64,000 nucleotides of DNA from positions 372,001 through 436,000 of the forward strand of contig NZ_CP014692.1 of assembly GCF_002005445.1 (NCBI RefSeq). The letters are read 5' to 3'. A program made the translations under genes and the position numbers. Positions 23,886 to 50,645 of the stretch are shown here, in pieces. The notes below the pieces were generated by a model. It ran no database searches. It saw only the letters and a program-made list of their open reading frames with translations, and was not told the origin of the DNA. The first letter of the stretch is position 1. Every line of letters starts with the position of its first letter. This stretch comes from Acetobacter aceti. GTDB taxonomy: Bacteria; Pseudomonadota; Alphaproteobacteria; Acetobacterales; Acetobacteraceae.

Positions 23886-25976
23886 ATGTCTGATACAAAC
23901 CGCAGAAACTTTATGAAGCTGATGGCGGGAGGCGGGACCATTGGAACCCTTCCTCTCAGCATAAAAAAGGCGCTGGCAACACCGGCCAACAACACGACCC
24001 GCTCCATCGAGGATGTCGAGTACGTCATTTTCCTCATGCAGGAAAACAGGTCGTTTGATCACTATTATGGTATGTTGCAGGGGGTTCGCGGCTTCAATGA
24101 TCCGCGCGTCGCGTCGCGAAATGCGACACAGAGCGTGTGGGAGCAGCCGCAGGGTTCATCCGTGGTGATGCCGTTCCATCCCACGGCGCCAGACCTTGGG
24201 CTGGCTTTCGTGGCGGACCTTGCCCATGACTGGGAAAGCACGCATGCGGCCTGGAATGGTGGTTCATGGGATGGCTGGATTGCAGCCAAGACCACGACGT
24301 GCATGGCGCATATGGAACGCTCTGATATTCCATTTCATTATGCTCTGGCCGATGCTTTTACAATCTGTGATGCCTATCACTGCTCGCTTATGGGCTCCAC
24401 TGATCCCAACCGCTATTACATGTGGACCGGCTGGGTCGGCAACGATGGCAAAGGTGGCGGTCCTGTCGTTGACAACGCTGAGGCGGGCTATTCCTGGACC
24501 ACCTACCCCGAGCGTCTGCAGGCCGCCGGCGTTACCTGGAAAGTCTATCAGGATATCGGTACCGGGCTGACCGCAGCAGGAAGCTGGGGCTGGACCAGCA
24601 ACGCCTATATCGGGACATACGGGGACAGCTCACTGCTGTATTTCAATCAGTACCGCAACGCGGATGATTCCTCGCCGCTCGCCCAGTATGGACGGACCGG
24701 CACCAATATCGCTCAGTCCGGCACTCTTTTTGATATTCTGAAAAGTGATGTCGAATCCGGAAATCTGTCACAGGTGTCATGGATTGTCGCGCCTGAAGCC
24801 TATTCAGAGCACCCGAACTGGCCGCCGAATTACGGCGCATGGTATGTCTCTCAGGTTCTGGACATCCTCACGGCAAACCCTGACGTCTGGAGCAAAACCG
24901 TTGTTTTTCTCACATTTGACGAGAATGACGGCTTCTTCGACCACGTTATTCCTCCCGCGCCTCCACCGGCCGCAGGGCGTGGCAAATCGACCGTTTCCAT
25001 AGAAAACGAGATATTTCCGGGAACATCGTCAAAAAGTTCCGGACCTTACGGTTTTGGGCCGCGCGTGCCGATGACAGTCATTTCTCCATGGACGCGGGGT
25101 GGCTGGGTCAACTCACAGGTGTTCGACCATACCTCGATGATCCGGTTTCTGGAGAAGCGTTTCGGTTCACTGTCACCCAATCTGACGGAACCCAATATCA
25201 CGCCCTGGCGTCGTGTCGTTTCAGGCGACCTGACCTCGATCTTTAACTTCCAGACGCCCAATGAAGATCTCGCTTCACTCCCTTCTACAACTGGCTATGT
25301 CCCGCCGGATCAGAACCGTCATTCCAGCTACGTACCAAGCGTGCCCACCACGCAGACTGTTCCGCAGCAGGAAAGCGGCGTCAGACCGGCGCGTGCTCTG
25401 CCTTATGATCTGCACACGCAATTCACGCCGTCATCCTCTACCGGAATGGCGACACTGAAATTCGTGAACAGTGGTGAGGCTGGCGTGGTCTTTCATGTTC
25501 GTGATCTCAACGGCGCTTTCCTGCCCCGCTATTTTACGGTTGAAGCCGCCAAATCCCTCTCCGACACATGGATCGTGAACAGCGGCAGCAGCTACAATCT
25601 GGAAACACACGGCCCGAACGGATTCTTCCGCGCCTATCGCGGCACACTCGGCGGTGCGGCGCATTCTTCTGCGCTGGCGATCTCCACGCAGTCCAACCGC
25701 ACTGCCAGGATGCTGATCATCGAACTGATCAATGAAGGCGCCTCAGCGCTCACGCTGACCTTCAGGGATGCCTATGCCTCGACGCAGATGAAGCCGGTGG
25801 TTCTCGCCGCTCATGGCTCTCATCCGCTGGTCGTCTCGGCCCGGAGCACAAGCGGCTGGTATGATGTCACGATAACGGCTGCTGAAGACAGCACTTTTCG
25901 GGCCCAGATCGCTGGGCATCTCGAAAACGGTCAGCCCAGCATCACCGATCCACTGATGGGCGGCGTCACAGTCTGA
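23886..25976 (+). CDS. Phospholipase C (phosphoesterase family), Tat-exported
   Basis: The 696-residue product starts with a twin-arginine signal (NRRNFMKLMAGGG, R6-R7). It carries the catalytic start of bacterial non-haemolytic/haemolytic PLC: VEYVIFLMQENRSFDHYYGMLQGVRGFNDPR. Further metal and substrate residues lie in VVFLTFDENDGFFDHVIPP and RVPMTVISPWTRGGWV. Two C-terminal PLC beta domains (about 500-690, KFVNSGEAGVVFHVRDL and YDVTITAAED) complete the usual layout. It would hydrolyse phosphatidylcholine or related lipids in the periplasm or outside. A relation to the phosphate regulon is possible, but no Pho box is evident upstream. Confidence 0.92.
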   Translation: MSDTNRRNFMKLMAGGGTIGTLPLSIKKALATPANNTTRSIEDVEYVIFLMQENRSFDHYYGMLQGVRGFNDPRVASRNATQSVWEQPQGSSVVMPFHPTAPDLGLAFVADLAHDWESTHAAWNGGSWDGWIAAKTTTCMAHMERSDIPFHYALADAFTICDAYHCSLMGSTDPNRYYMWTGWVGNDGKGGGPVVDNAEAGYSWTTYPERLQAAGVTWKVYQDIGTGLTAAGSWGWTSNAYIGTYGDSSLLYFNQYRNADDSSPLAQYGRTGTNIAQSGTLFDILKSDVESGNLSQVSWIVAPEAYSEHPNWPPNYGAWYVSQVLDILTANPDVWSKTVVFLTFDENDGFFDHVIPPAPPPAAGRGKSTVSIENEIFPGTSSKSSGPYGFGPRVPMTVISPWTRGGWVNSQVFDHTSMIRFLEKRFGSLSPNLTEPNITPWRRVVSGDLTSIFNFQTPNEDLASLPSTTGYVPPDQNRHSSYVPSVPTTQTVPQQESGVRPARALPYDLHTQFTPSSSTGMATLKFVNSGEAGVVFHVRDLNGAFLPRYFTVEAAKSLSDTWIVNSGSSYNLETHGPNGFFRAYRGTLGGAAHSSALAISTQSNRTARMLIIELINEGASALTLTFRDAYASTQMKPVVLAAHGSHPLVVSARSTSGWYDVTITAAEDSTFRAQIAGHLENGQPSITDPLMGGVTV

Positions 25977-26068: not shown

Positions 26069-29000
26069 ATGACGACCATTTCCTCCGGCTCCTCCGTCGA
26101 TGTGACATCCGGCACAACCAGCTCCGACATGATCATTCTCAGTGGTGGCACCGGCATCATTGACAATGGCGCAACGGGCAGCGGCACCCGAATCCAGGCA
26201 GGAGGCCGGGAAGTCGTCATGTCCGGCGGCGTGGAAAATGGCGCGCTGATCAGCGGAGGCATACTGGCCGTTGTCAGCGGGGGAACCCTTTCGGGAGGCA
26301 CCGCCACGGATGGAGGCTCCGTTGCCGTCGCGGAGGGGGGGACGGAAAATGGCCTTGCTCTGGCGAGCGGCATCGAAATGGTGATTGGCGGCTCTTCGCT
26401 GCTGGCGAATGTTGGCGCTGACTCGATTCAGGTGTTGCAGTCCGGCGGCACGGCAAAGGGTGCGGATGTTTCCGGTCAGCAACTGATTGGCTCAGGAGGC
26501 GTGTCGCAGAACGCGGTCATCGAGAGCGGCGGTGTCGACGTCGTGCAGGCTGACGGCATGACCGTCGGGACCACCATCATGGGCTATGGTGGTGAAATCG
26601 TTAGCTCCGGTGGCGTTTCAGAAAATGCGATGCTGGTGGATGACGGCGCGATGGAGACGGTCAGCGCTGGCGGCGCCCTGATCTCCGCTTCACTTTATGC
26701 CGGAACAACCGTTGTGGCGGATGGCGGCGTTGAGAGCGCTTCCCTGCTACAGGGAGGCACGGAAACGGTTCAGTCCGGTGGTTCATCCCTGAATACCACA
26801 ATTGCCTGGGGCGGCGCTGAAACTGTGGAAGACGGTGGAGCCGTTCTCTCCGCTGTCGTGCAGGAAGGAGGCAAGCTCCAGCTTGATCAGGGAGCGGTGG
26901 CCATCGATACGGACATCCAGTCCGGTGGTGAGCAGACACTGGCGTCCGGTGCTGTAACCTCCAATGTCACGGTCGAGAATCAGGGACTTCTGATCGTTGA
27001 TGACGTGTCGGCTGTTCGGGACGCAACGCTACAGGGCGGTGCCCGGATCGATATCGCTGATATTGCGTGGAATGCTTCCGAGACCGTTACGATCACGACG
27101 GATAAAGGACTCGTGATCACTGACGGGTCTTCCTCATGGACAATCGATCTCGCCAATATGAGTGGCGGCATGCAGGCTTCCCTGTCCGCTGCGGATGACG
27201 GCAGCGTTCTCGTCACCACTGCTGCGAGTCAGGTGACGTCCGGGGGCGTGATCGGCAACGGGAGTATCGGCGTCGTCTCCTCCGGCATGACCGCGTCGAG
27301 CATGGAGATCGCAAGCGGCGGTACGGAAATCGTGCAGGCTGGCGGCACGGCGGTTGGGACAGTCATCGACGGCGGTGGCGCGGAATACGTCCTGTCGAAC
27401 GGCATGCTTATCAACGCGACTCTTGCCGCAGGTGCGCAGGAAATTCTGGTTTCAGGCGCACAGGTCAGCGCGACCGTCATCCAGAGTGGCGCGGCTGAAA
27501 TCATCGTCTCCGGCGCGACGGCCACTGGCGCGGACGTACAGGCGGGAGGCGCTCAGGTTGTCTCTTCAGGCGGCACGACCATCAATCTCACCATCGAGAG
27601 CGGTGGCAGCGCGACCATTGCTGCGGAAGGCGCGACCAATCGCGGCGGCACCGCCATCAATACGACCGTGAAAAGCGGTGGTACTATCGCCTTCGGGCAT
27701 AACGGGGTCGAAATCGTCTCGGGTGGCACGGACTCCGGCGTGACGATCAATGACGGATGGGAACAGATCCAGACAGGCGGCACAGCGTTCAATGACATTC
27801 TGATCGGTGGCACTTATGCGGGTGTCGTCGGCGGAACCGATGTTGGACTGATCATGTCCGGTGGCGGCAATCGGGAATATGTGGGGTCTGACCCGCTGAC
27901 AGGGGCGATCGGCGCGGGTCTCTCCGAACAGACGGCGGTGGGCAGCGGCTCAACCCAGTATGTCTATGCTCAGGGCGCCTCCGTCGATGCACAGATTGCG
28001 GGTATCCAGACCGTCTCTTCCGGCGGAGAGGTGATCGGCGCCACGATTCTGGCTGGAGGTTCCGCCTCTGTCGCGGGCACATCCTTCAACATGACGGTTG
28101 CAACCGGCGGGAACGCCACCATCCTATCCGGCGCAATCGAAATCGTGTCGTCCGGCACGGATTCCGGTGTGACGCTGTCGGGCGGCGTTCTCGAAGTGAT
28201 GACGGGCGGCGTCGCCACTGGTGACATGCTGATCGCGGGTGCGCAGGCTGGTGTCGCTGGCGGCACGGCCATCGGTCTCTCACTCTCCGACGGGGCTACG
28301 GAAACGGTCGGTTTCGACACGCACACCAGCGCTGTCGCGGCCGGTGTTTCTTCCGACACAAAGATCGGTGCATCCGCCATTCAGACTGTCGGTTCGGGCG
28401 GCACAGCCATCGGCGCTGATATCGTCTCCGGTGGCGCGGAAATCGTCCTGTCGGGCGGTCTCAGTTCCGCGGTGGACATTGAAACCGGTGGTGTGCTCAT
28501 TGCCGACGACGCCTCGGAAATTGTTTCGGCTGCTCTTGGTTCAGGAGGCAGCATCAATATCCGCGATCAGGCATGGACCAGCGGTGCGACCGGCTCCATC
28601 GACAGCGACGGCACGCTGACCGTTACGGAAGGCGGCAGGAACTGGACCCTGAACCTTTCCCCGCGCGAAGCGGGCGCGACGGTCGAACTGTCCGCTGCGT
28701 CGGACGGCAGCACGCTGATCAGCGTCTCGGATCTTCCTCCCGGCTTTTTTGCCGACACGCTGGTTTCCTCCGGCGCCATCCTTGACGTGAAGTCGGGACA
28801 GACAGTGTCCAGCATCGCCGTTCTCAGTGGTGGCACTGAAATCGTTGAAAGCGGGGGCCATGCCTCCGCCACTACGGTCATGGGCAACGCTGTCGTCTCG
28901 CAGGGTGGCGTCGATGTGGGAATGATCATCAGCAGCGGTGGCAGCGCCAGCATCGCCGCAGGCGGTACGACGGTCAATATGACCGTTCTCAGCGGAGGAT

Positions 29001-31171
29001 CGGCGACATACGGGCACAACGGGATTGAAATCGTCTCGGGCGGCACGGACGCCAATGTCTCTCTCTCCAACGCTTACGTGGATGTGGAAACGGGCGGCAC
29101 GTCCTTCGGGGACATGCTGCTCGACAACACATGGGGCGGGGTTGTCGGCGGCACGGACATCAACACGACGATCAGGGGCGCGGGCAGCCGGGAGACGGTC
29201 GGGTATGACCTGCGCACGAAAGCCAGCGGCAAAGGGGCGTCGATCAGCACGCAGATCGGCAGCGGCGCGACCCAGACCGTTTATAGCGGCAGCACCGCCA
29301 CCAGCGCGGTGGTGTCCGCGGGCGGCACGGAAATCATCATGTCCGGCGGCACGGCGGTTTCCACCGTCGTGCTCAGCGGTGGTATGGAGATCGTCTCCAG
29401 TGGCTCGAATGGCGGGACGTCGATCAACACGACGGTGGAAACCGGCGGCACGATCATCATGTATCATGACGCCGTTGAAATCGTATCCGGCGGCACGGAT
29501 CTCAACGTCACGCTTGATGATGGCTGGGTCGATATCCAGTCCGGCGGCACCTCGTTCAATGACAGGCTGACCGACGGAACGTGGGAGGGCGTCGTCGGCG
29601 GCACCAACATCGACATGACGATGGTTGATGACGGCAACATCGAATATGTCGGATATGACCGTCTGACCGGAGCGACCGGTTCCGGTCTTTCCATTCACAC
29701 CACCATCGGCAGTGGCTCGACACAGGTTGTCGAGGCTCAGGGCACGGCGACAGGCGCTGTCGTCCAGAGTGGCGGCACGCAGATCGTGCAGTCCGGCGGT
29801 ATTGCGACCGACACACTCATCCAGTCTGGCGGCACGGCTTTTGTCTCGGCGGGCGCTGAGGTCAGTGGATTGCACCTTGATAGCGGGGCGGTCCTGTCCA
29901 CCGCCGATGCGCAGACGCTTTCCGGCCTGTCCGTTGATAACGGCGCGACAGTGGTGCTGGAGGATGTCGCCTGGGACAGCGCCGTGGCGGCCAGCATAAA
30001 CAGCGCCGGTGATCTGGTGGTTGAAAGCGGCGGCAGTTCATGGACTGTCGATCTTGGCGAGGGAACATTCGGCGGAACCGTCGAACTGTCTTCCGGGGCC
30101 AATGGCGGTCTTGATGTCGAATTGACCTGCTTTCTCGCAGGCGCGCTGATCCAGATGGCCGATGGCACGGAGAAACTGGTCGAGACCATCAAACAGACTG
30201 ATCAGGTCGTGGCTTTTACGCAGAATGGTGAAGAGAGCCGTTCCGTCATCTGGGCCGGTCGCATGCGGCATACCGTAAAAACCGATCTGCCTGACGACAG
30301 CGCAGGCTGGCCTGTCCGGATTGCGGCCGGCGCTCTCGGCGAAAGCGTGCCACACTCGGATCTTCTGGTTACACCGGAACATTGCCTGCTGATTGAGGAT
30401 CGTTTCGTGCCGGTCCGTATGCTCGTGAACGGACGCACCATACGTTACGATCGTACTCTTCCTGTCTATGACTACTATCATATCGAGACAGACAGCCATT
30501 CCGTGATCCGGGCCAGTGGCGTGCTGACGGAAAGCTTCCTCGATACCGGCCACAGGCGCACTTTCACACAGGATGGCAGGCTCGCCACGATCGGCAGTCG
30601 GATTCTGGACTGGCAGACAGATGCTGCGGCGCCCCTGAATACGGATCGTGGTTTTGTGGAGCCACATTATCGGGCTATCGAAAGCCGGGCTATCCAGTCG
30701 GGTGTGTCGGTTGAAGAAAAGACCGTAAGGATCACGCACGAGCCGGATCTGAAAATTGTGCTGCCGTCCGGCGAAGAGATCAGATCCCGGAGCGGCCTGG
30801 ACACTGATACCGTGTTCTTCGCGTTGCCTGCCGGAGCGCATGATGTCAGGATCGTCTCACGGGCTGCGCGCCCTGCGGATATGATCGGCCCGTTCCTTGA
30901 TGATCGACGTCAGCTTGGCGTCTGTGTCGGTCAAATCACCCTTTATCAGGCTGGCATCGCGCATTCAGTGACGTCACATCTCGAACAGTCTGCATTGCCG
31001 GGATGGCATGCGCCTGAAGGCGACAGATGCTGGACCGACGGAGCGGCGGCTCTGTCGCTCGGCGACGCCGAGATCGACAGGGGCGGTCTTCTCGCGCTTC
31101 AGATCGTTGCTGGTGGGCCATGGCCTGTTTCTGAAGAAGTGGAACAGGATAAGGATCACCGGGCGGCGTGA
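26069..31171 (+). CDS. AIDA-type repeat adhesin with C-terminal Hint domain
   Basis: The 1700-residue product is built for its first ~1350 residues from ~19-residue beta-helical repeats of the AIDA/autotransporter strand-loop-strand type (pattern ...V.SGG....T.I..GG...). The array is broken by three 75-80-residue spacer modules (residues about 309-385, 811-887 and 1272-1352) and contains four copies of a 91-residue higher-order module. Residues 1354-1500 form a Hint_2-like (Hedgehog/intein) domain: C1354 in TCFLAGALIQMADGTEKLVE is the expected nucleophile, and T1435-P-E-H1438 is the block-B TxxH. About 200 uncharacterised residues follow. There is no signal peptide and no autotransporter beta-barrel, so the export route is unknown. 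The stop overlaps the start of a heptosyltransferase gene, which suggests that the repeats are glycosylated on Ser/Thr. Confidence 0.88.
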   Translation: MTTISSGSSVDVTSGTTSSDMIILSGGTGIIDNGATGSGTRIQAGGREVVMSGGVENGALISGGILAVVSGGTLSGGTATDGGSVAVAEGGTENGLALASGIEMVIGGSSLLANVGADSIQVLQSGGTAKGADVSGQQLIGSGGVSQNAVIESGGVDVVQADGMTVGTTIMGYGGEIVSSGGVSENAMLVDDGAMETVSAGGALISASLYAGTTVVADGGVESASLLQGGTETVQSGGSSLNTTIAWGGAETVEDGGAVLSAVVQEGGKLQLDQGAVAIDTDIQSGGEQTLASGAVTSNVTVENQGLLIVDDVSAVRDATLQGGARIDIADIAWNASETVTITTDKGLVITDGSSSWTIDLANMSGGMQASLSAADDGSVLVTTAASQVTSGGVIGNGSIGVVSSGMTASSMEIASGGTEIVQAGGTAVGTVIDGGGAEYVLSNGMLINATLAAGAQEILVSGAQVSATVIQSGAAEIIVSGATATGADVQAGGAQVVSSGGTTINLTIESGGSATIAAEGATNRGGTAINTTVKSGGTIAFGHNGVEIVSGGTDSGVTINDGWEQIQTGGTAFNDILIGGTYAGVVGGTDVGLIMSGGGNREYVGSDPLTGAIGAGLSEQTAVGSGSTQYVYAQGASVDAQIAGIQTVSSGGEVIGATILAGGSASVAGTSFNMTVATGGNATILSGAIEIVSSGTDSGVTLSGGVLEVMTGGVATGDMLIAGAQAGVAGGTAIGLSLSDGATETVGFDTHTSAVAAGVSSDTKIGASAIQTVGSGGTAIGADIVSGGAEIVLSGGLSSAVDIETGGVLIADDASEIVSAALGSGGSINIRDQAWTSGATGSIDSDGTLTVTEGGRNWTLNLSPREAGATVELSAASDGSTLISVSDLPPGFFADTLVSSGAILDVKSGQTVSSIAVLSGGTEIVESGGHASATTVMGNAVVSQGGVDVGMIISSGGSASIAAGGTTVNMTVLSGGSATYGHNGIEIVSGGTDANVSLSNAYVDVETGGTSFGDMLLDNTWGGVVGGTDINTTIRGAGSRETVGYDLRTKASGKGASISTQIGSGATQTVYSGSTATSAVVSAGGTEIIMSGGTAVSTVVLSGGMEIVSSGSNGGTSINTTVETGGTIIMYHDAVEIVSGGTDLNVTLDDGWVDIQSGGTSFNDRLTDGTWEGVVGGTNIDMTMVDDGNIEYVGYDRLTGATGSGLSIHTTIGSGSTQVVEAQGTATGAVVQSGGTQIVQSGGIATDTLIQSGGTAFVSAGAEVSGLHLDSGAVLSTADAQTLSGLSVDNGATVVLEDVAWDSAVAASINSAGDLVVESGGSSWTVDLGEGTFGGTVELSSGANGGLDVELTCFLAGALIQMADGTEKLVETIKQTDQVVAFTQNGEESRSVIWAGRMRHTVKTDLPDDSAGWPVRIAAGALGESVPHSDLLVTPEHCLLIEDRFVPVRMLVNGRTIRYDRTLPVYDYYHIETDSHSVIRASGVLTESFLDTGHRRTFTQDGRLATIGSRILDWQTDAAAPLNTDRGFVEPHYRAIESRAIQSGVSVEEKTVRITHEPDLKIVLPSGEEIRSRSGLDTDTVFFALPAGAHDVRIVSRAARPADMIGPFLDDRRQLGVCVGQITLYQAGIAHSVTSHLEQSALPGWHAPEGDRCWTDGAAALSLGDAEIDRGGLLALQIVAGGPWPVSEEVEQDKDHRAA
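26993..27221 (+). repeat. Spacer module 1 inside the AIDA-Hint protein
   Basis: This encodes residues about 309-385. It has the same plan as the two spacers further on: VDD.., ..GG.I.I.D.AW.., a WT.DL segment and L.AA.DGS.L. It interrupts the short repeats. Confidence 0.55.
27701..27976 (+). repeat. 91-residue module, copy 1
   Basis: This encodes residues 545-636, from NGVEIVSGGTDSGVTINDGW to VGSGSTQYVYAQG. It shares EIVSGGTD, GGT.F.D, GVVGGTD, a V.(S/Y)D..T core and a closing GSG(S/A)TQ with the copies at 28130, 29018 and 29468. Confidence 0.75.
28130..28399 (+). repeat. 91-residue module, copy 2 (most diverged)
   Basis: This encodes residues 688-777, from GAIEIVSSGTDSGVTLSGG to IQTVGSG. 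It keeps EIVSSGTD, TGDMLI, AGVAGGTAIG, ETVGFDTHT and the closing SAIQTV, with more substitutions than the other three copies. Confidence 0.7.
28499..28729 (+). repeat. Spacer module 2 inside the AIDA-Hint protein
   Basis: This encodes residues about 811-887, with the same plan as spacer 1: IADDASEIV, GGSINIRDQAW, RNWTLNLSP and VELSAASDGSTL. Confidence 0.55.
29018..29290 (+). repeat. 91-residue module, copy 3
   Basis: This encodes residues 984-1074, from NGIEIVSGGTDANVSLSN to GSGATQTVYSG. It includes GGTSFGDMLLDNTWGGVVGGTD and ETVGYDLRTKASGKG. Confidence 0.75.
29468..29743 (+). repeat. 91-residue module, copy 4
   Basis: This encodes residues 1134-1225, from DAVEIVSGGTDLNVTLDDGW to GSGSTQVVEAQG. 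It is closest to copies 1 and 3 (GGTSFNDRLTDGTWEGVVGGTN, EYVGYDRLTGATGSG). Confidence 0.75.
29882..30124 (+). repeat. Spacer module 3, directly before the Hint domain
   Basis: This encodes residues about 1272-1352: LSTADAQTLSGL, GATVVLEDVAWDS, SSWTVDLGEG and VELSSGANGG, ending two residues before the Hint cysteine. It is the third copy of the spacer plan. Confidence 0.55.
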
Positions 31172-32376
31172 GCAACGAGACTGACGTTAAAAACCATCTG
31201 ACGGAAAAACCGGATGTCGCACACACTGTGGCATCCGTTCTCAGTCAGGCAGGTCCGGACGGCATCCGCTACGATTTTCAGGATGGATGCCGTGTATTCT
31301 GTCCTCCCGGTCATGACTGGCGCGTGGTCATGCATGACCGGGAAACACGGAATGTCCTGTTCAATCACACCTGTCAGGGTGGTTATCTCCGTTCATCGAG
31401 ACGCTCTTTCGTCTCATTTGGACTGGAGGTTTTTAAAAATGGCAGTCTTGTTTTTGCTCACGACTATAACGCGGCGAGCAGAGACGTTCTGATCGATATG
31501 TCTCTGGGCGCGCTGGGAGACCATCTGGCGTGGATGGGGCAGGTTGAGCGTTTTCGGAAAAAACATGGATGCCGACTGACCTGTATCATGCGCGGTCCTC
31601 TCATTGATCTTCTTGCGCCCGCACATCCGGAAATCCGTATGGTTCCGAAAGAGCAATGCGAAAAGGCCGGATTTTATGCCGCCTACAAGGTGGCTGTGTT
31701 CTACAATGATGACGCAGGGGATTTTCAGCCCTGTGATTATCGGCAGGTCGGGTTGTGCGCGACGGCGGCATGGATACTCGGCCTTCCTCCACAGGAAATC
31801 CGCCCGGTTATTCCGCCCGTGAGTGACGTCAGACCGATTGAAAAGCCCTATGTGTGCATCGCGGTGCAGGCGTCGGGGCAGGCAAAATACTGGAACAATC
31901 CGCGCGGCTGGCGGGAAGTCGTGACATTCCTGAAACAGGCGGGATACGAGGTTATTTGTATCGATAGATTACCTGAAAATGGCTCGGGTCTGACATGGAC
32001 AGCCATGCCGAACGGTGTTCAGGATGAAACGGGTGACCGTCCGCTGGCCGAGCGGGCCTGGTGGCTCCATCACGCGGACTTTTTCATCGGTCTTTCCAGT
32101 GGACTGGCGTGGCTGGCCTGGACGGTGAGGTGCCGGGTGGTCATGATTTCGGGATTCACTGAAATATTCAATGAATTTCAGACACCATGGCGGGTCATCA
32201 ACAAGAACGTCTGCAATGGGTGCGCCAACGATGTACGCCTGAAATTCGACTCTTCGGATTTTTTCTGGTGCCCACGACACAAGGGCACAACGCGGCAGTT
32301 TGAATGTACGCGCATGATTACAGCCCATCAGGTGATCGGTCATATTGATACAATAAGAGACAATATAAACGTCTGA
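31168..32376 (+). CDS. Autotransporter strand-loop-strand O-heptosyltransferase (Aah/TibC family)
   Basis: The 402-residue product matches the bacterial autotransporter heptosyltransferases. It has an N-terminal beta-rich region with DGIRYDFQDGCRVFCPPGHDWRVVM and IDMSLGALGDHLAWM, then a GT9-like core including VCIAVQASGQAKYWNNPRGWREVV, ADFFIGLSSGLAWLAWTV and MISGFTEIFNEFQTPWRV. A four-cysteine finger follows at C349-x2-C352-x15-C368-x11-C380. In this family the four cysteines hold an iron ion, and the enzyme moves heptose from ADP-heptose to Ser in AIDA-type repeats. The GTG start overlaps the stop of the AIDA-Hint gene (GTGA), making that protein the obvious acceptor. ADP-heptose synthesis genes are not in the window. 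Confidence 0.9.
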   Translation: MSNETDVKNHLTEKPDVAHTVASVLSQAGPDGIRYDFQDGCRVFCPPGHDWRVVMHDRETRNVLFNHTCQGGYLRSSRRSFVSFGLEVFKNGSLVFAHDYNAASRDVLIDMSLGALGDHLAWMGQVERFRKKHGCRLTCIMRGPLIDLLAPAHPEIRMVPKEQCEKAGFYAAYKVAVFYNDDAGDFQPCDYRQVGLCATAAWILGLPPQEIRPVIPPVSDVRPIEKPYVCIAVQASGQAKYWNNPRGWREVVTFLKQAGYEVICIDRLPENGSGLTWTAMPNGVQDETGDRPLAERAWWLHHADFFIGLSSGLAWLAWTVRCRVVMISGFTEIFNEFQTPWRVINKNVCNGCANDVRLKFDSSDFFWCPRHKGTTRQFECTRMITAHQVIGHIDTIRDNINV

Positions 32377-32650: not shown

Positions 32651-34252
32651 ATGACCGACAGCTGCAAGATCCTGATGATCTTTCCGCTTTTCAACTCAGG
32701 TTCGTTCTGGAACTACAGGGAAGCCTGTGAACTGACCGGTGCGCGCTATCCGGCGGCCCCTCTCGGTCTGATCACGGTGGCTGCCCTGCTTCCGGAGAAC
32801 TGGAACGTCAGGCTGATCAATCGCAACACGGAACTTCTGACGGAAGAGGATTTCGCCTGGGCGGATATGGTGATGACCGGGGGAATGCTGCCGCAGAGAA
32901 ACGATGCCCTGCATATCATCGAGACATGCCGGGCCAAGGGTAAGCCTGTGGTGGTCGGAGGCCCTGACGTCACATCCAGCCCGGACATCTATAAGGCCGC
33001 AAATTTTCAGGTTCTCGGTGAGGCCGAGGAGATCATGGTCAATTTCATCTCCGCGTGGCGCAGTGGTGATACGGAGGGTGTTTTTGAAGCGCCCATGGGG
33101 AAGACGGATGTCACGAAAAGCCCCCTGCCGCGCTTTGATCTTCTGAAGCTGGATCAGTATCTGCATGTCGGGATTCAGTTCTCGCGCGGATGTCCGTTCA
33201 GCTGTGAATTCTGCGACATCATTGAGCTGTATGGGCGTGTGCCGCGCACCAAGACGACCGGACAGGTCATGGCGGAACTGGAAGCGCTCCATGCCCTCGG
33301 TTATCGCGGGCATGTCGATTTTGTGGATGACAACCTGATCGGCAACAAAAAGGCGCTCAGGAAATTTCTGCCTGACCTGAAGCGCTGGCAGAACGAAAAG
33401 CGCTTTCCGTTCGAGTTTTCGACTGAAGCGTCCATCAACCTTGCCGATGATGCCGAACTGCTGAAGGATCTTGCCGACAGCAATTTCTTCGCCGTGTTCG
33501 TGGGCATCGAAAGCCCGGACACCGACACGCTGGTCATGACGCAGAAAAAGCAGAACACCCGCCGGAGTCTGCAGCAGAGTATCGAGACCATCCACGGCGC
33601 CGGAATTTTCGTGAACGCCGGTTTCATTGTGGGCTTCGACAGCGAAAAAGGCAGCGTCGCTTCCGGCATGATCGAGTGTATCGAAGATACGTCGATCCCT
33701 GTCTGCATGGTCGGTCTGCTTTACGCCCTGCCGACCACGCAGTTGACACGTCGACTGCTGGCGGAGGAGCGTCTCTTTGTGGATGACGGCCAGACGCAGT
33801 CGGGCGACCAGTGCACGGCCGGTCTGAACTTTGAGACCAGCCGCTCACGCCGGGATGTGCTGGACGATTACCGGACGGTGCTCAGAACAATCTATGAGCC
33901 GACCGCCTATTTCGGTCGTGTGCGGAGACTGGGCCGGATGCTCAGACGCTCCCGCGTGCATCGGATGATCAAGGGAGATCTCCGCAGCTTCTTCAGGCTG
34001 CTCTTCCGCATTCACCGTGCTGGTCCGGGCTCAGCGGGACAATTCTGGCGGATGCTGGCCGATTGTGCCGTGCATAACCCGAAAGCGTTGCCCTATGTGG
34101 TCATGACAAGCGCGCTGTATCTGCACCTTGGTCCGTTTGCGCGTCAGGTCATTCAAGAGATTGATCAGGAGATTCTCAATATCGAGCAGGGTCGCTGGCA
34201 GGCTCCCCCTCTGCGGAAGAAGGCCCTTGAGGAAGAACTCCAGCCTGCATGA
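32651..34252 (+). CDS. B12-binding-domain radical SAM protein (DUF4070 type)
   Basis: The 533-residue product has an N-terminal cobalamin-binding-like domain (residues 1-150: KILMIFPLFNSG, PLGLITVAALLP, ADMVMTGGMLPQR, KPVVVGGPDVTS). The radical SAM core follows, with C181-x3-C185-x2-C188 in SRGCPFSCEFCDI holding the 4Fe-4S cluster. VDFVDDNLIGNK and FEFSTEASINLADD then lead to a C-terminal DUF4070-like region. The family includes the hopanoid C-2 methylase HpnP but also many enzymes of unknown substrate, and no hopanoid genes are adjacent. A methyl transfer or rearrangement on a lipid or small molecule is possible. Confidence 0.85.
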   Translation: MTDSCKILMIFPLFNSGSFWNYREACELTGARYPAAPLGLITVAALLPENWNVRLINRNTELLTEEDFAWADMVMTGGMLPQRNDALHIIETCRAKGKPVVVGGPDVTSSPDIYKAANFQVLGEAEEIMVNFISAWRSGDTEGVFEAPMGKTDVTKSPLPRFDLLKLDQYLHVGIQFSRGCPFSCEFCDIIELYGRVPRTKTTGQVMAELEALHALGYRGHVDFVDDNLIGNKKALRKFLPDLKRWQNEKRFPFEFSTEASINLADDAELLKDLADSNFFAVFVGIESPDTDTLVMTQKKQNTRRSLQQSIETIHGAGIFVNAGFIVGFDSEKGSVASGMIECIEDTSIPVCMVGLLYALPTTQLTRRLLAEERLFVDDGQTQSGDQCTAGLNFETSRSRRDVLDDYRTVLRTIYEPTAYFGRVRRLGRMLRRSRVHRMIKGDLRSFFRLLFRIHRAGPGSAGQFWRMLADCAVHNPKALPYVVMTSALYLHLGPFARQVIQEIDQEILNIEQGRWQAPPLRKKALEEELQPA

Positions 34253-46663: not shown

Positions 46664-46728
46664 GGCGTCCATGTCATTTTGTTAACGGTTCGGCGGTGGG
46701 CGCATCAGCAGGTTTGAGGAATGCCCTG

Positions 46729-48663
46729 ATGTCGAGTGTAACAAATGGCGGTTCTGTTTCGGGCGCATCCACCAGTTCCGGGGATGTGACGCAGAATGTC
46801 GATTCCGGAAATGGGCGCATTGTCACCACGGTTGGAAGCGGAGGAGTGGTGACGTCCGCTGTCCTGGGGGCTTCGGCAGAGACCTACGCAAGAGAAGATC
46901 TTGTTGTGGAATCAGGGGGAGCGTCCTTTTTCACGTCGGTCACTCCAGCCAATTCAGCCAGTGTCATCGTCCGTAATGCAATAGTGCAGGAGGATGTGTA
47001 CGGGCTCAGCACCAGCGCCGTTTTTTCCACGACCATCGCGGAAATACAGAATAACGTTCATGGATGGGGTGGCGGCGCTGAAGTCTATTCGGCGAGCCAG
47101 TATGTTCATGCTGGCGGAGAGTCTTACGGCGCGACATTTGCAGGAGCGCCGGGTGGCAGTTTTCTTCCTAATCAGAACGATCCCTATTGGGGTTACACGC
47201 CGATTACCTATTCCGCCGCTGATGCGACGCAATATGTTGAGTCTGGCGGACTGGCGAAAAATACGACGTTGAACGCCTATTCTGAGCAGATCGTATCCGG
47301 CGGCGTCGCGCGTCTTACGATGGTCAACAGGAGCGGGGAGCAGATTGTCTCCTCTGGGGGTTCAGTTGTCGATACGATGGTCAACAGCGGTGGAAAGCAG
47401 ACAGTCTCTTCCGGCGGTTCAGCCACCCATACAACCCTCAACGCCTACGGCTCGTCCTTTGTCGCATCGGGCGGCACGGCGATTAACGTGGATGTCGGCT
47501 CCGGCGGTGTTCTGAGCGCAGGCAGTGGCGCGACGCTGACCGACATCACGCTCGAGAACGGCGGCAGGCTGGACGTGTCGAAAGACACCCTGTTCACGGA
47601 CCGGATCGCGCTCAATGGCGGCACGATCGACATCACGGACCTGACAGGTTCCGGGACACCGGATTACACATTCAGCGGCGACAACAGGCTGACCATCACC
47701 CGTGACGGCGTCAGCGAAACGCTCCTGTTTGACGGCGTCTATGATCCGACCAAACTGTTCGTCACGACCGATACTGATGGCAGCACGCTGATCGACTACG
47801 GTACGCCCGCGCCGTGCTACTGCCCCGGTACGCTGATCGCCACGGCGGAGGGTGAAACTCCCGTCGAGGCGCTGGAAATCGGTGATCTGGTCCGCACGGC
47901 ATCCGGCGCGCTGCGTCCCATCCGCTGGATCGGTCGCCGCGCCTATGACGGTGTGTTCGCCCGCGGCAATCCGGACCTGATCCCCGTGACCTTCGAGAAA
48001 GGGTCGCTGGGCCACAATCTGCCGAAGCGGGCGCTGACAGTCTCGCCGCTGCACGCCATGTTCGTGGAAAGGTATCTGATCCCGGCGCACTGTCTGGTGA
48101 ACGGCGGCTCCATCCATTTCGCCAGTATCGGCGAGCGGGTGGAATATATCCACATCGAGCTTGAAAGCCACGATCTCCTGCTGGCCGAGGGCGCTCCGTC
48201 CGAGAGCTTCGTCGATGACGGCTCGCGCGGCATGTTCCACAACGCGGGTACATTTGCAGAGCTTTATCCGGACGCGGAGACCGTCGAGGCGGTCTATTGC
48301 GCGCCACGTCTGGAAGACGGCACGATGCTGGAACATATCCGCGACCGTCTGTCGGCCCATACCGGTAGCGTTGTGCGCCAGCACACGGCGGGCAGCTCTG
48401 TGCGGCTGGGCCTGCTGGCTTCTGACAGGGAGCGTCTGCTGTGCGGCTGGGCTGTTGACCTGCTGACGCCGTCCGAGCCTGTGGCGTTGGAAGTGCTGCT
48501 GAACGGGCGTGTTCTCGGTATGACGCTGGCCGATGGTCCGAGCGGCGTGGTGAGCAACGGTGCGGCTGCCTACGGCTTCACGTTCGGTCTGCCGCGTGGG
48601 ATCACGACCGCGAGCGGCGCGTTCTCGCTGCGGGCTGTGTCGTCCATGAAAGCAGCGGCCTGA
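46729..48663 (+). CDS. Hint-domain repeat protein (second, smaller copy)
   Basis: The 644-residue product has an irregular N-terminal half with about six AIDA-like repeats (residues about 170-290: QYVESGGLAKNTTL, EQIVSSGGSVVDTMV, KQTVSSGGSATHTTL and others). A spacer follows with GGTIDITDLT and TDTDGSTLIDYG. The Hint_2 domain begins at C363 (CYCPGTLIATAEGETPVEALEIGD) and contains the block-B S439-P-L-H442. An FHN is seen late in the domain (GMFHNAG), as in many Hint_2 proteins. There is no clear signal peptide and no barrel. The ATG at 46729 follows GAGGAA; an upstream in-frame GTG lacks a ribosome site. It shares the plan, but little sequence, with the protein at 26069. Confidence 0.85.
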   Translation: MSSVTNGGSVSGASTSSGDVTQNVDSGNGRIVTTVGSGGVVTSAVLGASAETYAREDLVVESGGASFFTSVTPANSASVIVRNAIVQEDVYGLSTSAVFSTTIAEIQNNVHGWGGGAEVYSASQYVHAGGESYGATFAGAPGGSFLPNQNDPYWGYTPITYSAADATQYVESGGLAKNTTLNAYSEQIVSGGVARLTMVNRSGEQIVSSGGSVVDTMVNSGGKQTVSSGGSATHTTLNAYGSSFVASGGTAINVDVGSGGVLSAGSGATLTDITLENGGRLDVSKDTLFTDRIALNGGTIDITDLTGSGTPDYTFSGDNRLTITRDGVSETLLFDGVYDPTKLFVTTDTDGSTLIDYGTPAPCYCPGTLIATAEGETPVEALEIGDLVRTASGALRPIRWIGRRAYDGVFARGNPDLIPVTFEKGSLGHNLPKRALTVSPLHAMFVERYLIPAHCLVNGGSIHFASIGERVEYIHIELESHDLLLAEGAPSESFVDDGSRGMFHNAGTFAELYPDAETVEAVYCAPRLEDGTMLEHIRDRLSAHTGSVVRQHTAGSSVRLGLLASDRERLLCGWAVDLLTPSEPVALEVLLNGRVLGMTLADGPSGVVSNGAAAYGFTFGLPRGITTASGAFSLRAVSSMKAAA

Positions 48664-48674
48664 GCCAGCCCCTC

Positions 48675-50645
48675 ATGACCGGTCCGCTCTATCGCGCCTT
48701 TCTTGATCGGGCGGATCGGTATGTCATCGAAGGATGGGCGAGGGATGAGACGGACCCGTTTACGCCCGTCCCGCTCGCCGTTTTCCGTGATGGCGTGCAG
48801 GTTGCGGAACTGGCCGCCGAAAGCTGGCGCGAAGACCTTGTGGAGCCCGGACATAGCGATGGCTATTGCGCCTTTCGTCATGTCTGGGTGCCGCCGCTGC
48901 CGGAGAACGATTTTTCACGGATCGAAGTGAGACTTCCGAACGGAGAGCAGATCAGTGGCTCTCCGGTTTTCGTGCCCGCGCCGACGGATGAGCAGACCGT
49001 ACTGGGGATGCGGGGCGCGATCGACATTCTCGATCACGAGCGGGTCGCCGGGTGGATACGAGACGAGGATCGGCCCGAACGTGCCGTTGGAGTGACGGTT
49101 CTGCTCGACGGGCAGGAAGTCGCCTTTCTGAAAGCCAACAGCTTCCGCCGTGATCTTCGTGATCTGGGTTTGGGAAGCGGGCGCTATGGCTTCGAGTTTC
49201 TGTTTACGTTTCCGCCGGACCCGCTCACGGCGCATACTGTCGAAATCCACCCTGATACAGGTTCGCCTTTTCCTGAAGGTGCGAAAATCCTGCCAGCGGC
49301 AGAGGGTTTTTTCGATCAGGCCATGATGAATCTCGCCCATCGCGAAATTGGTGGGTTGCGCGATGTGGAGAAGATCCGGACGGCTGCTGATTTTCTGGCG
49401 TCCTGTCTGGAGACGCTCAGGAGGAAGGATGCGGAAGGCACGTTGGGATTGGGGTCCCGACGTGAAATCCGTCGTCTGCGCCGGCAGGAGGCCAATCGTA
49501 CCGTCACGGTGCAGCGTCAGGTGCTGGTGATTGACGATCAGACCCCTGATGCGCGGCGTGATGCGGCCTCGGTGGCGCTGCTGTCGCACATGAAAGCCAT
49601 GCAGGCGGCGGGGCTGAAAGTGTTCTTCACGCCAGGTCTCATTCCCGGCTGTCGTGAGGACGTTCTCGCTTTACTTGAAGAGCAGGGGATTACAGTTCTC
49701 AGGCCGCCCTTATGGGAGTCGGTCGAGGCCATTCTCAGACAGGCGGGCGAGGCGTTTGAGCTCATCTATCTGCATCGCCTCGGCAATGCGTCGGCCTATC
49801 TGGAACTGGCGCGACGTCTCTGTCCGATGGCGCGGATCATATGGTCCGTGGCGGATATCGACAGTCTCCGTCTACGGCGACAGGCGCAGGTCGAGCAGCG
49901 GCCTGAACTGACTCTTCTCGCCGCCCAGAGCGAAGCGCGAGAGCGTATGATCACATGGCGCGCCAATGTGGTGATCACCCATTCGGATGAGGAGACGGCG
50001 CGCATCAGGGAAGGCGTGCCATCCTGCGCCGCTGTCACCGTGCGTTGGGCGGTTCCTGTCGGAAAGACGATGTATCGTCCGGCGAAACGGGACAGGATCG
50101 TTTTTCTCGGCCATTTCGGTCACGCACCCAATCGGGATGCTGTCCGCTGGCTGGCTACGGAGATTGTACCCGCCCTGCGTCGTCTGAATCCCTCGCTGGC
50201 GATCACGGTTTTCGGTTCGGGCATGACGGCGGAAACCCTGTCTTTTGCCTGTGATGGACTGACGTTCGCGGGTTATGCGCCGGAGCTCCCTCGTGTTTTC
50301 GCAGCGGCGCGGCTGATGGTCGCGCCGCTGCGTTTTGGTGCGGGCATCAAGGGCAAGATTCTGGAAAGCTGGGCGCATGGCGTCCCGGTTCTGATGACGC
50401 CAATGGCGGCGGAAGGTCTGCCGCTTCTGGCTGCTCAGCGTTCCTGTGTAGCGCCTGCGGAGACGGCGGCGTTTGTTGCTGCTCTTGCGGCGTTATGGGG
50501 CGATGAAGACAGGCTGAAAGAGCAGTCTGCTCTGGGGCGAAAATTGCTCAGAGCGTCTTTTGCGGAAAAATCGGTTGAAGCAGAAATGGCGCAGGCTTTG
50601 TCAGCCGCTTTTGCTGGTAAGGGCATGAAGAGCGGGAGCCTGTAG
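48675..50645 (+). CDS. Group-1 (GT4-type) glycosyltransferase with two N-terminal beta repeats
   Basis: The 656-residue product starts with two related domains (about 6-100 and 112-205), each with a VxGWxRD...P..V.V..DG..VA......R.DL...G...G...F pattern. A helical linker follows, then a GT4-type transferase (about 280-645): a Rossmann half with QVLVIDDQTPDARRDAAS, then RDRIVFLGHFGHAPNRDAVRWLATEIVPALR, TFAGYAPELPRVFAAARLMVAPLRFGAGIKGKILESWAHGVPVLMT. The Lys and Glu of the donor site are in IKGKILESWAHG. It begins 11 bases after the Hint gene, so the two are in one operon and the Hint protein may be its acceptor. Confidence 0.87.
   Translation: MTGPLYRAFLDRADRYVIEGWARDETDPFTPVPLAVFRDGVQVAELAAESWREDLVEPGHSDGYCAFRHVWVPPLPENDFSRIEVRLPNGEQISGSPVFVPAPTDEQTVLGMRGAIDILDHERVAGWIRDEDRPERAVGVTVLLDGQEVAFLKANSFRRDLRDLGLGSGRYGFEFLFTFPPDPLTAHTVEIHPDTGSPFPEGAKILPAAEGFFDQAMMNLAHREIGGLRDVEKIRTAADFLASCLETLRRKDAEGTLGLGSRREIRRLRRQEANRTVTVQRQVLVIDDQTPDARRDAASVALLSHMKAMQAAGLKVFFTPGLIPGCREDVLALLEEQGITVLRPPLWESVEAILRQAGEAFELIYLHRLGNASAYLELARRLCPMARIIWSVADIDSLRLRRQAQVEQRPELTLLAAQSEARERMITWRANVVITHSDEETARIREGVPSCAAVTVRWAVPVGKTMYRPAKRDRIVFLGHFGHAPNRDAVRWLATEIVPALRRLNPSLAITVFGSGMTAETLSFACDGLTFAGYAPELPRVFAAARLMVAPLRFGAGIKGKILESWAHGVPVLMTPMAAEGLPLLAAQRSCVAPAETAAFVAALAALWGDEDRLKEQSALGRKLLRASFAEKSVEAEMAQALSAAFAGKGMKSGSL

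Follow-up and report, generated by a model that had tools for sequence, protein, structure and literature searches.

A TibC-type heptosyltransferase and an AIDA-repeat Hint protein in Acetobacter aceti: a recurrent acceptor/enzyme pair without recognisable autotransporter parts

Introduction

Enzymes of the BAHT family were named for, and have been studied on, the autotransporters of pathogens. A 64,000-nucleotide stretch of the Acetobacter aceti genome (contig NZ_CP014692.1, positions 372,001 to 436,000 of the forward strand; hereafter the window) carries a gene for an enzyme of this type, P0002, whose start overlaps the stop of a gene for a long repeat protein, P0001, which ends in a Hint domain and a further beta domain. 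The locus thus raises the question of whether the two proteins belong together and, if so, how such an acceptor would be modified, exported and processed. Here we report that P0001 and P0002 are a real, recurrent acceptor/enzyme pair; heptose modification of P0001 by P0002 is very likely, and we consider it probable that the product is a heptosylated, Hint-processed surface or matrix adhesin that is not an autotransporter. The features of the pair are the following, in window coordinates.

26069 to 31171, + strand: AIDA-repeat Hint protein P0001, predicted heptose acceptor (open reading frame, ORF, of 1700 aa)
26069 to 30124, + strand: Cys-free, Gly/Ser/Thr-rich strand-loop-strand repeat region, residues 1-1352 (TIGR04415; 0 Cys)
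30125 to 30547, + strand: Hint_2 domain PF13403, residues 1353-1493 (104.1 bits)
30626 to 31168, + strand: C-terminal mostly-beta domain, residues 1520-1700 (pLDDT, the model's local confidence score, 87.5)
31168 to 31171, + strand: GTGA shared by the P0001 stop and the P0002 start (sequence at the junction)
31168 to 32376, + strand: Aah/TibC-type (BAHT) heptosyltransferase P0002 (402 aa ORF; TIGR04414, PF21129 TibC_1st, Glyco_transf_9)
32212 to 32307, + strand: segment that holds the iron finger, cysteines C349, C352, C368 and C380 (alignment to TibC)

The two genes overlap and are conserved together

The ORF coordinates bear out the gene positions, the 1700-residue length of P0001 and the GTGA overlap that an initial annotation of the sequence had given, and the overlap suggests translational coupling. 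Both genes are present in Acetobacter sicerae LMG 1531, where the identical 4-base overlap is kept and the P0001 orthologue shares 92% identity across its entire length. With ratios of nonsynonymous to synonymous divergence (dN/dS) against A. sicerae of 0.14 (P0001) and 0.13 (P0002), both genes are apparently under purifying selection. Their synonymous divergence (0.29 and 0.27) is low next to that of the flanking phospholipase (0.63) and radical SAM gene (0.56), which is consistent with the two having been exchanged or constrained as a unit.

As to these neighbours, the upstream gene (23886-25976) encodes a phosphocholine-specific phospholipase C (TIGR03396, 812 bits), lies on the same strand as P0001 and ends 92 bases before it. 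The downstream gene (32651-34252) encodes a B12-binding radical SAM protein with DUF4070 that scores under all listed NCBIfam cut-offs (best PhpK, 80 of 600 bits) and that, among the loci compared, stands beside the pair again only in A. sicerae.

P0002 as a member of the BAHT family

Membership of P0002 in the BAHT family, proposed in the initial annotation, is clear from its sequence: it scores 548.3 bits against the TIGR04414 equivalog model (cut-off 200; model positions 2-374 of 374), its nearest solved structure is TibC (4rap, E 3.6e-110; also 4rb4), and its four finger cysteines align with C339, C342, C358 and C370 of TibC. D118 and K240 are the alignment equivalents of TibC D110 and K230, mutants of which were used as catalytically inactive or sugar-binding-deficient forms according to the excerpted text of PMC4358343 (eLife 2014). 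These positions were followed through an alignment of 189 rows including P0002, which holds 188 of 196 BAHT ORFs (the other 8, none longer than 330 aa, were excluded) from two samples that share some genomes. In TibC numbering, K230 and C339, C342 and C358 are kept in all 189 rows, C370 in 188 (one gap) and D110 in 187 (two gaps).

The position of TibC P300 bears on sugar selectivity. It is occupied by Ser310 in P0002, as by S294 in Aah, and across the alignment by Ser in 175 of the 189 rows, Ala in 9 and Gly in 5. In the same excerpt, the P300S mutant of TibC can use ADP-L,D-heptose as well as ADP-D,D-heptose, and S294P makes Aah D,D-selective (PMC4358343). Because of the Ser at this position, together with these mutant results, P0002 is predicted to take both forms of ADP-heptose.

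P0001 combines AIDA-type repeats with a Hint domain

The assignment of P0001 as AIDA repeats followed by a Hint domain likewise stands. The protein matches TIGR04415 in 14 stretches (154 bits) and the AIDA family PF16168 in four (66.7 bits), and its first 1340 residues are 19% Gly, 12% Ser and 11% Thr. In the Hint domain, block B reads T1435-P-E-H1438, and Cys1354 (Cys1) is the predicted nucleophile of an N-S acyl shift. The AlphaFold model of the domain, aligned to bacterial intein-like (BIL), intein and Hedgehog structures, has the Hint fold, and P0001 shows the hallmarks of the Hint superfamily (that fold in the model, Cys1 and the block B histidine). There is also a conserved E-[ST] motif near the intein end of the domain. 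For the C-terminal beta domain, no Pfam family was found at E <= 0.1, and searches of the PDB gave no confident match.

From these residues, self-cleavage N-terminal to the Hint domain is plausible. The most serious alternative, which we hold to be possible though distinctly short of even, accepts the heptosylation and takes the Hint domain as a module for structure or export that does not cleave although it keeps its active-site residues. An intein-type C-terminal His-Asn is missing from P0001 residues 1470-1520, so that the full splicing chemistry is absent, and the occurrence of Hint modules on many passengers (repeats, subtilase, nuclease, lectin) would also fit a role in export or anchoring. 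A purely structural domain, however, need not retain its nucleophile, and across 56 aligned Hint domains Cys1 is kept in 55 (one gap) and H1438 in all 56. Cleavage ahead of the Hint domain stays part of the preferred reading.

Near the end of the Hint domain, F-H-N occurs in L030, L031, L033, L136, L138 and L185, not in P0001; these domains may mark a subfamily with different chemistry.

The pairing recurs in Acetobacteraceae

A family sample of 299 Acetobacteraceae genomes has TIGR04414 over cut-off in 87, PF16168 (E <= 0.001) in 74 and Hint_2 in 228. AIDA repeats and BAHT occur together in 70 genomes, AIDA repeats without BAHT in 4, BAHT without AIDA repeats in 17 and neither in 208, so that BAHT is present in 70 of the 74 genomes with AIDA repeats vs 17 of the 225 without (Fisher p 1.7e-46, uncorrected for shared ancestry). 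G114, one of the four AIDA-only genomes, has a BAHT fragment below the cut-off, and Hint_2 is found in 85 of the 87 BAHT genomes.

Gene neighbourhoods were compared in a locus sample of 100 stretches around listed BAHT genes (75 genomes, 33 genera; own genome apart); 17 further merged BAHT stretches, being fragments or extra loci of sampled genera, lie outside these 100, and the BAHT matches listed are a lower bound. A repeat or Hint ORF lies within 1 kb of the BAHT gene at 40 of the 100 loci: a Hint ORF at 26 (24 genomes, 14 genera), a repeat ORF that is open at the stretch or contig end at 10, and a repeat ORF that is complete but lacks a full Hint domain at four. By a simple estimate, chance would place a Hint gene this close at 1 to 2 per 100 loci. 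At the 26 Hint-bearing loci the enzyme comes first in 21, five Hint-bearing loci with this order having a 4-base overlap, the acceptor comes first in four, as in the minority arrangement of P0001/P0002, and one is divergent; gaps and orders at L138, L158, L170, L190 and L194 are distorted by over-long ORF starts.

In a second sample of 64 loci, which overlaps the first (L048 and family locus L148 have the same gene coordinates), a Hint ORF lies within 1 kb at four (L041, L048, L058 and L062), belonging to A. sicerae and to metagenome-assembled genomes (MAGs) labelled Rhodospirillales, Methylorubrum populi and Proteobacteria. The expectation that the pair would recur in relatives is thus borne out, by the 26 loci and by the A. 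sicerae pair. Its description as an adhesin of acetic acid bacteria holds in part: it recurs in Acetobacteraceae and is also found in the M. populi MAG and the two other MAGs.

Adjacency could be incidental, with P0002 modifying another acceptor or a small molecule. Among 173 BAHT loci compared, a cluster of AMP-binding ligases lies nearby at 23 and a cluster of polyketide synthases at 17 (one representative per cluster was identified by Pfam), mostly where there is no repeat protein; the excerpted text of PMC8776678 describes the same cluster content, polyketide synthase clusters with O-heptosyltransferase genes. Moreover, the three BAHTs and seven repeat proteins of the genome leave several pairings possible. 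Against this stand the co-occurrence of AIDA repeats and BAHT, the 26 loci with a neighbouring Hint protein and the low synonymous divergence of both genes relative to their flanks, as if they had been co-inherited, and we judge an incidental overlap improbable. The preferred reading keeps P0001 as the substrate of P0002.

The third BAHT of the genome (L037:8017-9363) has no Hint or repeat ORF that was found in the 18 kb fetched. Elsewhere, at L197, L202, L214, L215 and similar loci, tandem BAHT genes adjoin genes for an AMP-binding ligase and a polyketide synthase, and neither a repeat nor a Hint ORF was found in these stretches.

Autotransporter parts and export

The claim that the acceptor lacks a beta-barrel and ends in a Hint domain agrees with the profile matches of P0001, which include no barrel family and no ESPR; its residues 1-40 contain no lysine or arginine. 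Across the samples, a signal region was called from hydropathy only, by the crude test of a hydrophobic 12-mer behind at least two lysines or arginines within the first 70 residues. Under this test no signal region is called in any of 34 Hint proteins, of which 26 stand next to BAHT genes in the family sample and 8 come from the host genome, two of these 8 lacking repeats. The three Hint proteins of the second sample are likewise negative, and 16 of the 28 non-Hint acceptors there are positive; among family-sample repeat proteins without a visible Hint domain the count is 1 of 13 (L179, no Pfam match). Phe, Trp or Tyr as the last residue is typical of barrels. Among complete proteins it is found in 2 of 33 Hint proteins of the own genome and family sample, in none of three in the second sample, in 15 of 19 non-Hint acceptors of the second sample and in none of four family-sample repeat proteins without Hint.

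The BAHT family thus seems, from these sequences, to have two acceptor kinds, one with a signal peptide and a barrel-like end, mostly in Burkholderiales, Neisseriales and enterobacteria, and one signal-less, in Acetobacteraceae and Bradyrhizobium. In the host genome, PF03797 and TIGR01414 searches, both of which detect Escherichia coli and Caulobacter barrels, found no autotransporter barrel, and all 55 listed TIGR04415 matches sit in ORFs with Hint_2 (7 of 9 full Hint ORFs; 150 of 176 first-look candidates scored).

A barrel in cis in P0001 is largely refuted by its modelled C-terminus. That the protein is still an AIDA-type autotransporter, with a barrel missed or supplied in trans, is very improbable: its repeats are of the AIDA/TibA kind, and a barrel elsewhere in the genome could escape two models that miss many signal-peptide acceptors, but its C-terminus is confidently modelled as Hint plus beta domain, ESPR and N-terminal basic residues are lacking, and neither model matches in the genome.

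Exporter genes were seen beside related proteins. Bradyrhizobium loci L042-L045, L067 and L071 combine BAHT and a signal-less repeat protein with genes for an ABC exporter, HlyD and an FkbM methyltransferase, and at L044 the exporter pair is over the HlyB and HlyD cut-offs. At L034:1-6181 a C39-peptidase ABC exporter and HlyD adjoin a 578-aa Hint protein without AIDA repeats; this stretch also encodes a 130-aa protein with, by eye, a GG-type N-terminus. A Bradyrhizobium ORF of 998 aa (L043:1765-4761) weakly matches a cadherin-like domain and Pfam Tox-PLDMTX.

A proposed course of events, and what weighs against it

In the preferred reading, the gene overlap would keep P0001 and P0002 made together, and P0002, a relative of the dodecameric TibC, would use ADP-heptose in the cytoplasm to heptosylate serines of the P0001 repeats, prior to export. 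As no signal region is recognisable in P0001 and the protein ends in Hint plus a beta domain, it would leave by a route independent of Sec and type V secretion, most likely through a type I exporter. The Hint domain would then probably cut the chain ahead of Cys1354 by an N-S acyl shift, which would free the Cys-free repeat rod of about 1350 residues or transfer it to a nucleophile, leaving the Hint and C-terminal beta domains behind. The released rod would be the heptosylated surface or matrix adhesin.

Several results weigh against this course. No acceptor lies within 1 kb at 60 of the 100 BAHT loci, and 17 of the 87 BAHT genomes have no AIDA match, so some BAHTs would have distant or different substrates. 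A search of the genome for gmhA and hldE, suggested with the initial annotation, gave a mixed outcome: HldE domain II (182.4 bits, cut-off 181.5) and HldD (369.5, cut-off 274.6) are over their cut-offs, and the best GmhA match (169.2 bits) is under its own of 209.45. The stretch aligned to P0001 residues 1479-1510 contains His-Asn in 7 of 38 relatives; Cys or Thr comes next in none of these 7, and Ser follows, not directly, in one (L030). The signal test trips on P0001 itself at residue 58, within the repeats, and is blurred by the over-long starts of several sampled ORFs. When the barrel models were applied to BAHT acceptors with a signal region from other taxa, PF03797 matched one of six (L054; not L047, L050, L059, L090 or L092) and TIGR01414 one of four (L092; not L050, L054 or L059); because both models miss many barrels, their silence in the host genome is weak evidence. 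Finally, no type I exporter was recognised by eye among the ORFs at 20-38 kb, and an HlyB-type ATPase is over cut-off in just 5 of the 299 Acetobacteraceae genomes.

A second glycosyltransferase linked to AIDA-Hint proteins

An unexpected finding is a GT4-like glycosyltransferase, unrelated to BAHT, that is also linked to AIDA-Hint proteins. The window contains one such pair.

46696 to 48663, + strand: second AIDA-Hint protein, 655 aa as listed (PF16168 and PF13403)
48675 to 50645, + strand: group-1 (GT4-like) glycosyltransferase, 656 aa, 11 bases behind the second AIDA-Hint gene

This is one of two further AIDA-Hint genes of the genome that adjoin a GT4-like gene, and in two other AIDA-Hint proteins a homologous GT4-like PF13692 domain is fused behind the Hint domain (L032, 1219 aa; L029, 2623 aa); the L029 gene is divergent from the second BAHT of the genome. 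Single polypeptides of AIDA repeats, Hint and GT4-like domain were seen at L032:6978-10637, L029:5235-13106, L158:4853-8308 and L145:11070-18932. For the Hint-GT part of L032, among the best 120 of 193 homologues including the query, 112 have PF13403 and PF13692, 37 of these also PF16168; nuclease, subtilase, lectin and GH16 are further passengers among those listed.

Since fusion usually signals joint action, the association of Hint proteins with transferases of their own looks like a general pattern. Speculatively, and we think it rather unlikely, Hint would be a general glycosylate-then-release cassette in Acetobacteraceae: a secreted rod or enzyme would first be modified by its dedicated transferase, either fused behind Hint or the product of a neighbouring gene (BAHT or GT4-like), and would then be released by Hint cleavage. 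Cleavage would separate the modified passenger from its transferase or tail and perhaps join the new carboxyl end to a lipid nucleophile, much as Hedgehog is joined to sterol; hopanoids are abundant in acetic acid bacteria.

Relation to known systems and significance

The pair resembles TibC-TibA and Aah-AIDA-I of E. coli in enzyme family, iron finger, catalytic residues, the TibC N-terminal domain, the type of acceptor repeat and gene adjacency. Unlike TibA and AIDA-I, P0001 has no recognisable signal peptide or barrel and carries the Hint and beta domains instead; the acceptor gene also comes first, whereas in the excerpted text of PMC4358343 the BAHT gene often precedes the autotransporter. 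The Hint domain shares its modelled fold, Cys1 and the T-x-x-H block with BIL and Hedgehog-type domains, and differs in lacking the C-terminal His-Asn, in its E-[ST] near the intein end and in belonging to Hint_2 PF13403. The database fusions of passenger, Hint and GT4-like domain are similar in placing a Hint domain and a glycosyltransferase behind AIDA repeats, and different in that the transferase is group-1/GT4-like (PF13692) and part of the same polypeptide.

The novelty supposed in the initial annotation has to be narrowed. No description of an AIDA-Hint acceptor paired with a BAHT was found in the open-access papers that were searched. The architecture itself is catalogued and is common in databases: PF16168 and PF13403 occur together in 38 of the 120 homologues listed, and databases name such entries 'Hint domain-containing protein' or 'autotransporter passenger strand-loop-strand repeat protein'. 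Both families also appear together in the excerpted text of PMC8776678, which reports Acetobacteraceae beta-group polyketide synthase clusters with hint-domain proteins (for Asaia) and O-heptosyltransferase genes. P0001 and P0002 represent these two protein families and come from this bacterial family; the excerpt treats the genes of both families as accessory genes of polyketide clusters and proposes no acceptor/enzyme pair.

The BAHT sugar-coating system therefore seems to serve another kind of client as well, one that has been little described: here, outside pathogens and in 14 of the sampled genera, BAHTs pair with acceptors that have an intein-like tail and lack autotransporter parts. If this is confirmed, the client range and the name of the BAHT family would change, protein heptosylation would become a trait of acetic acid bacteria, and the Hint domains of secreted bacterial proteins would gain a testable role, with the fused passenger-Hint-GT4-like proteins allowing the link between Hint processing and glycosylation to be tested within one polypeptide.

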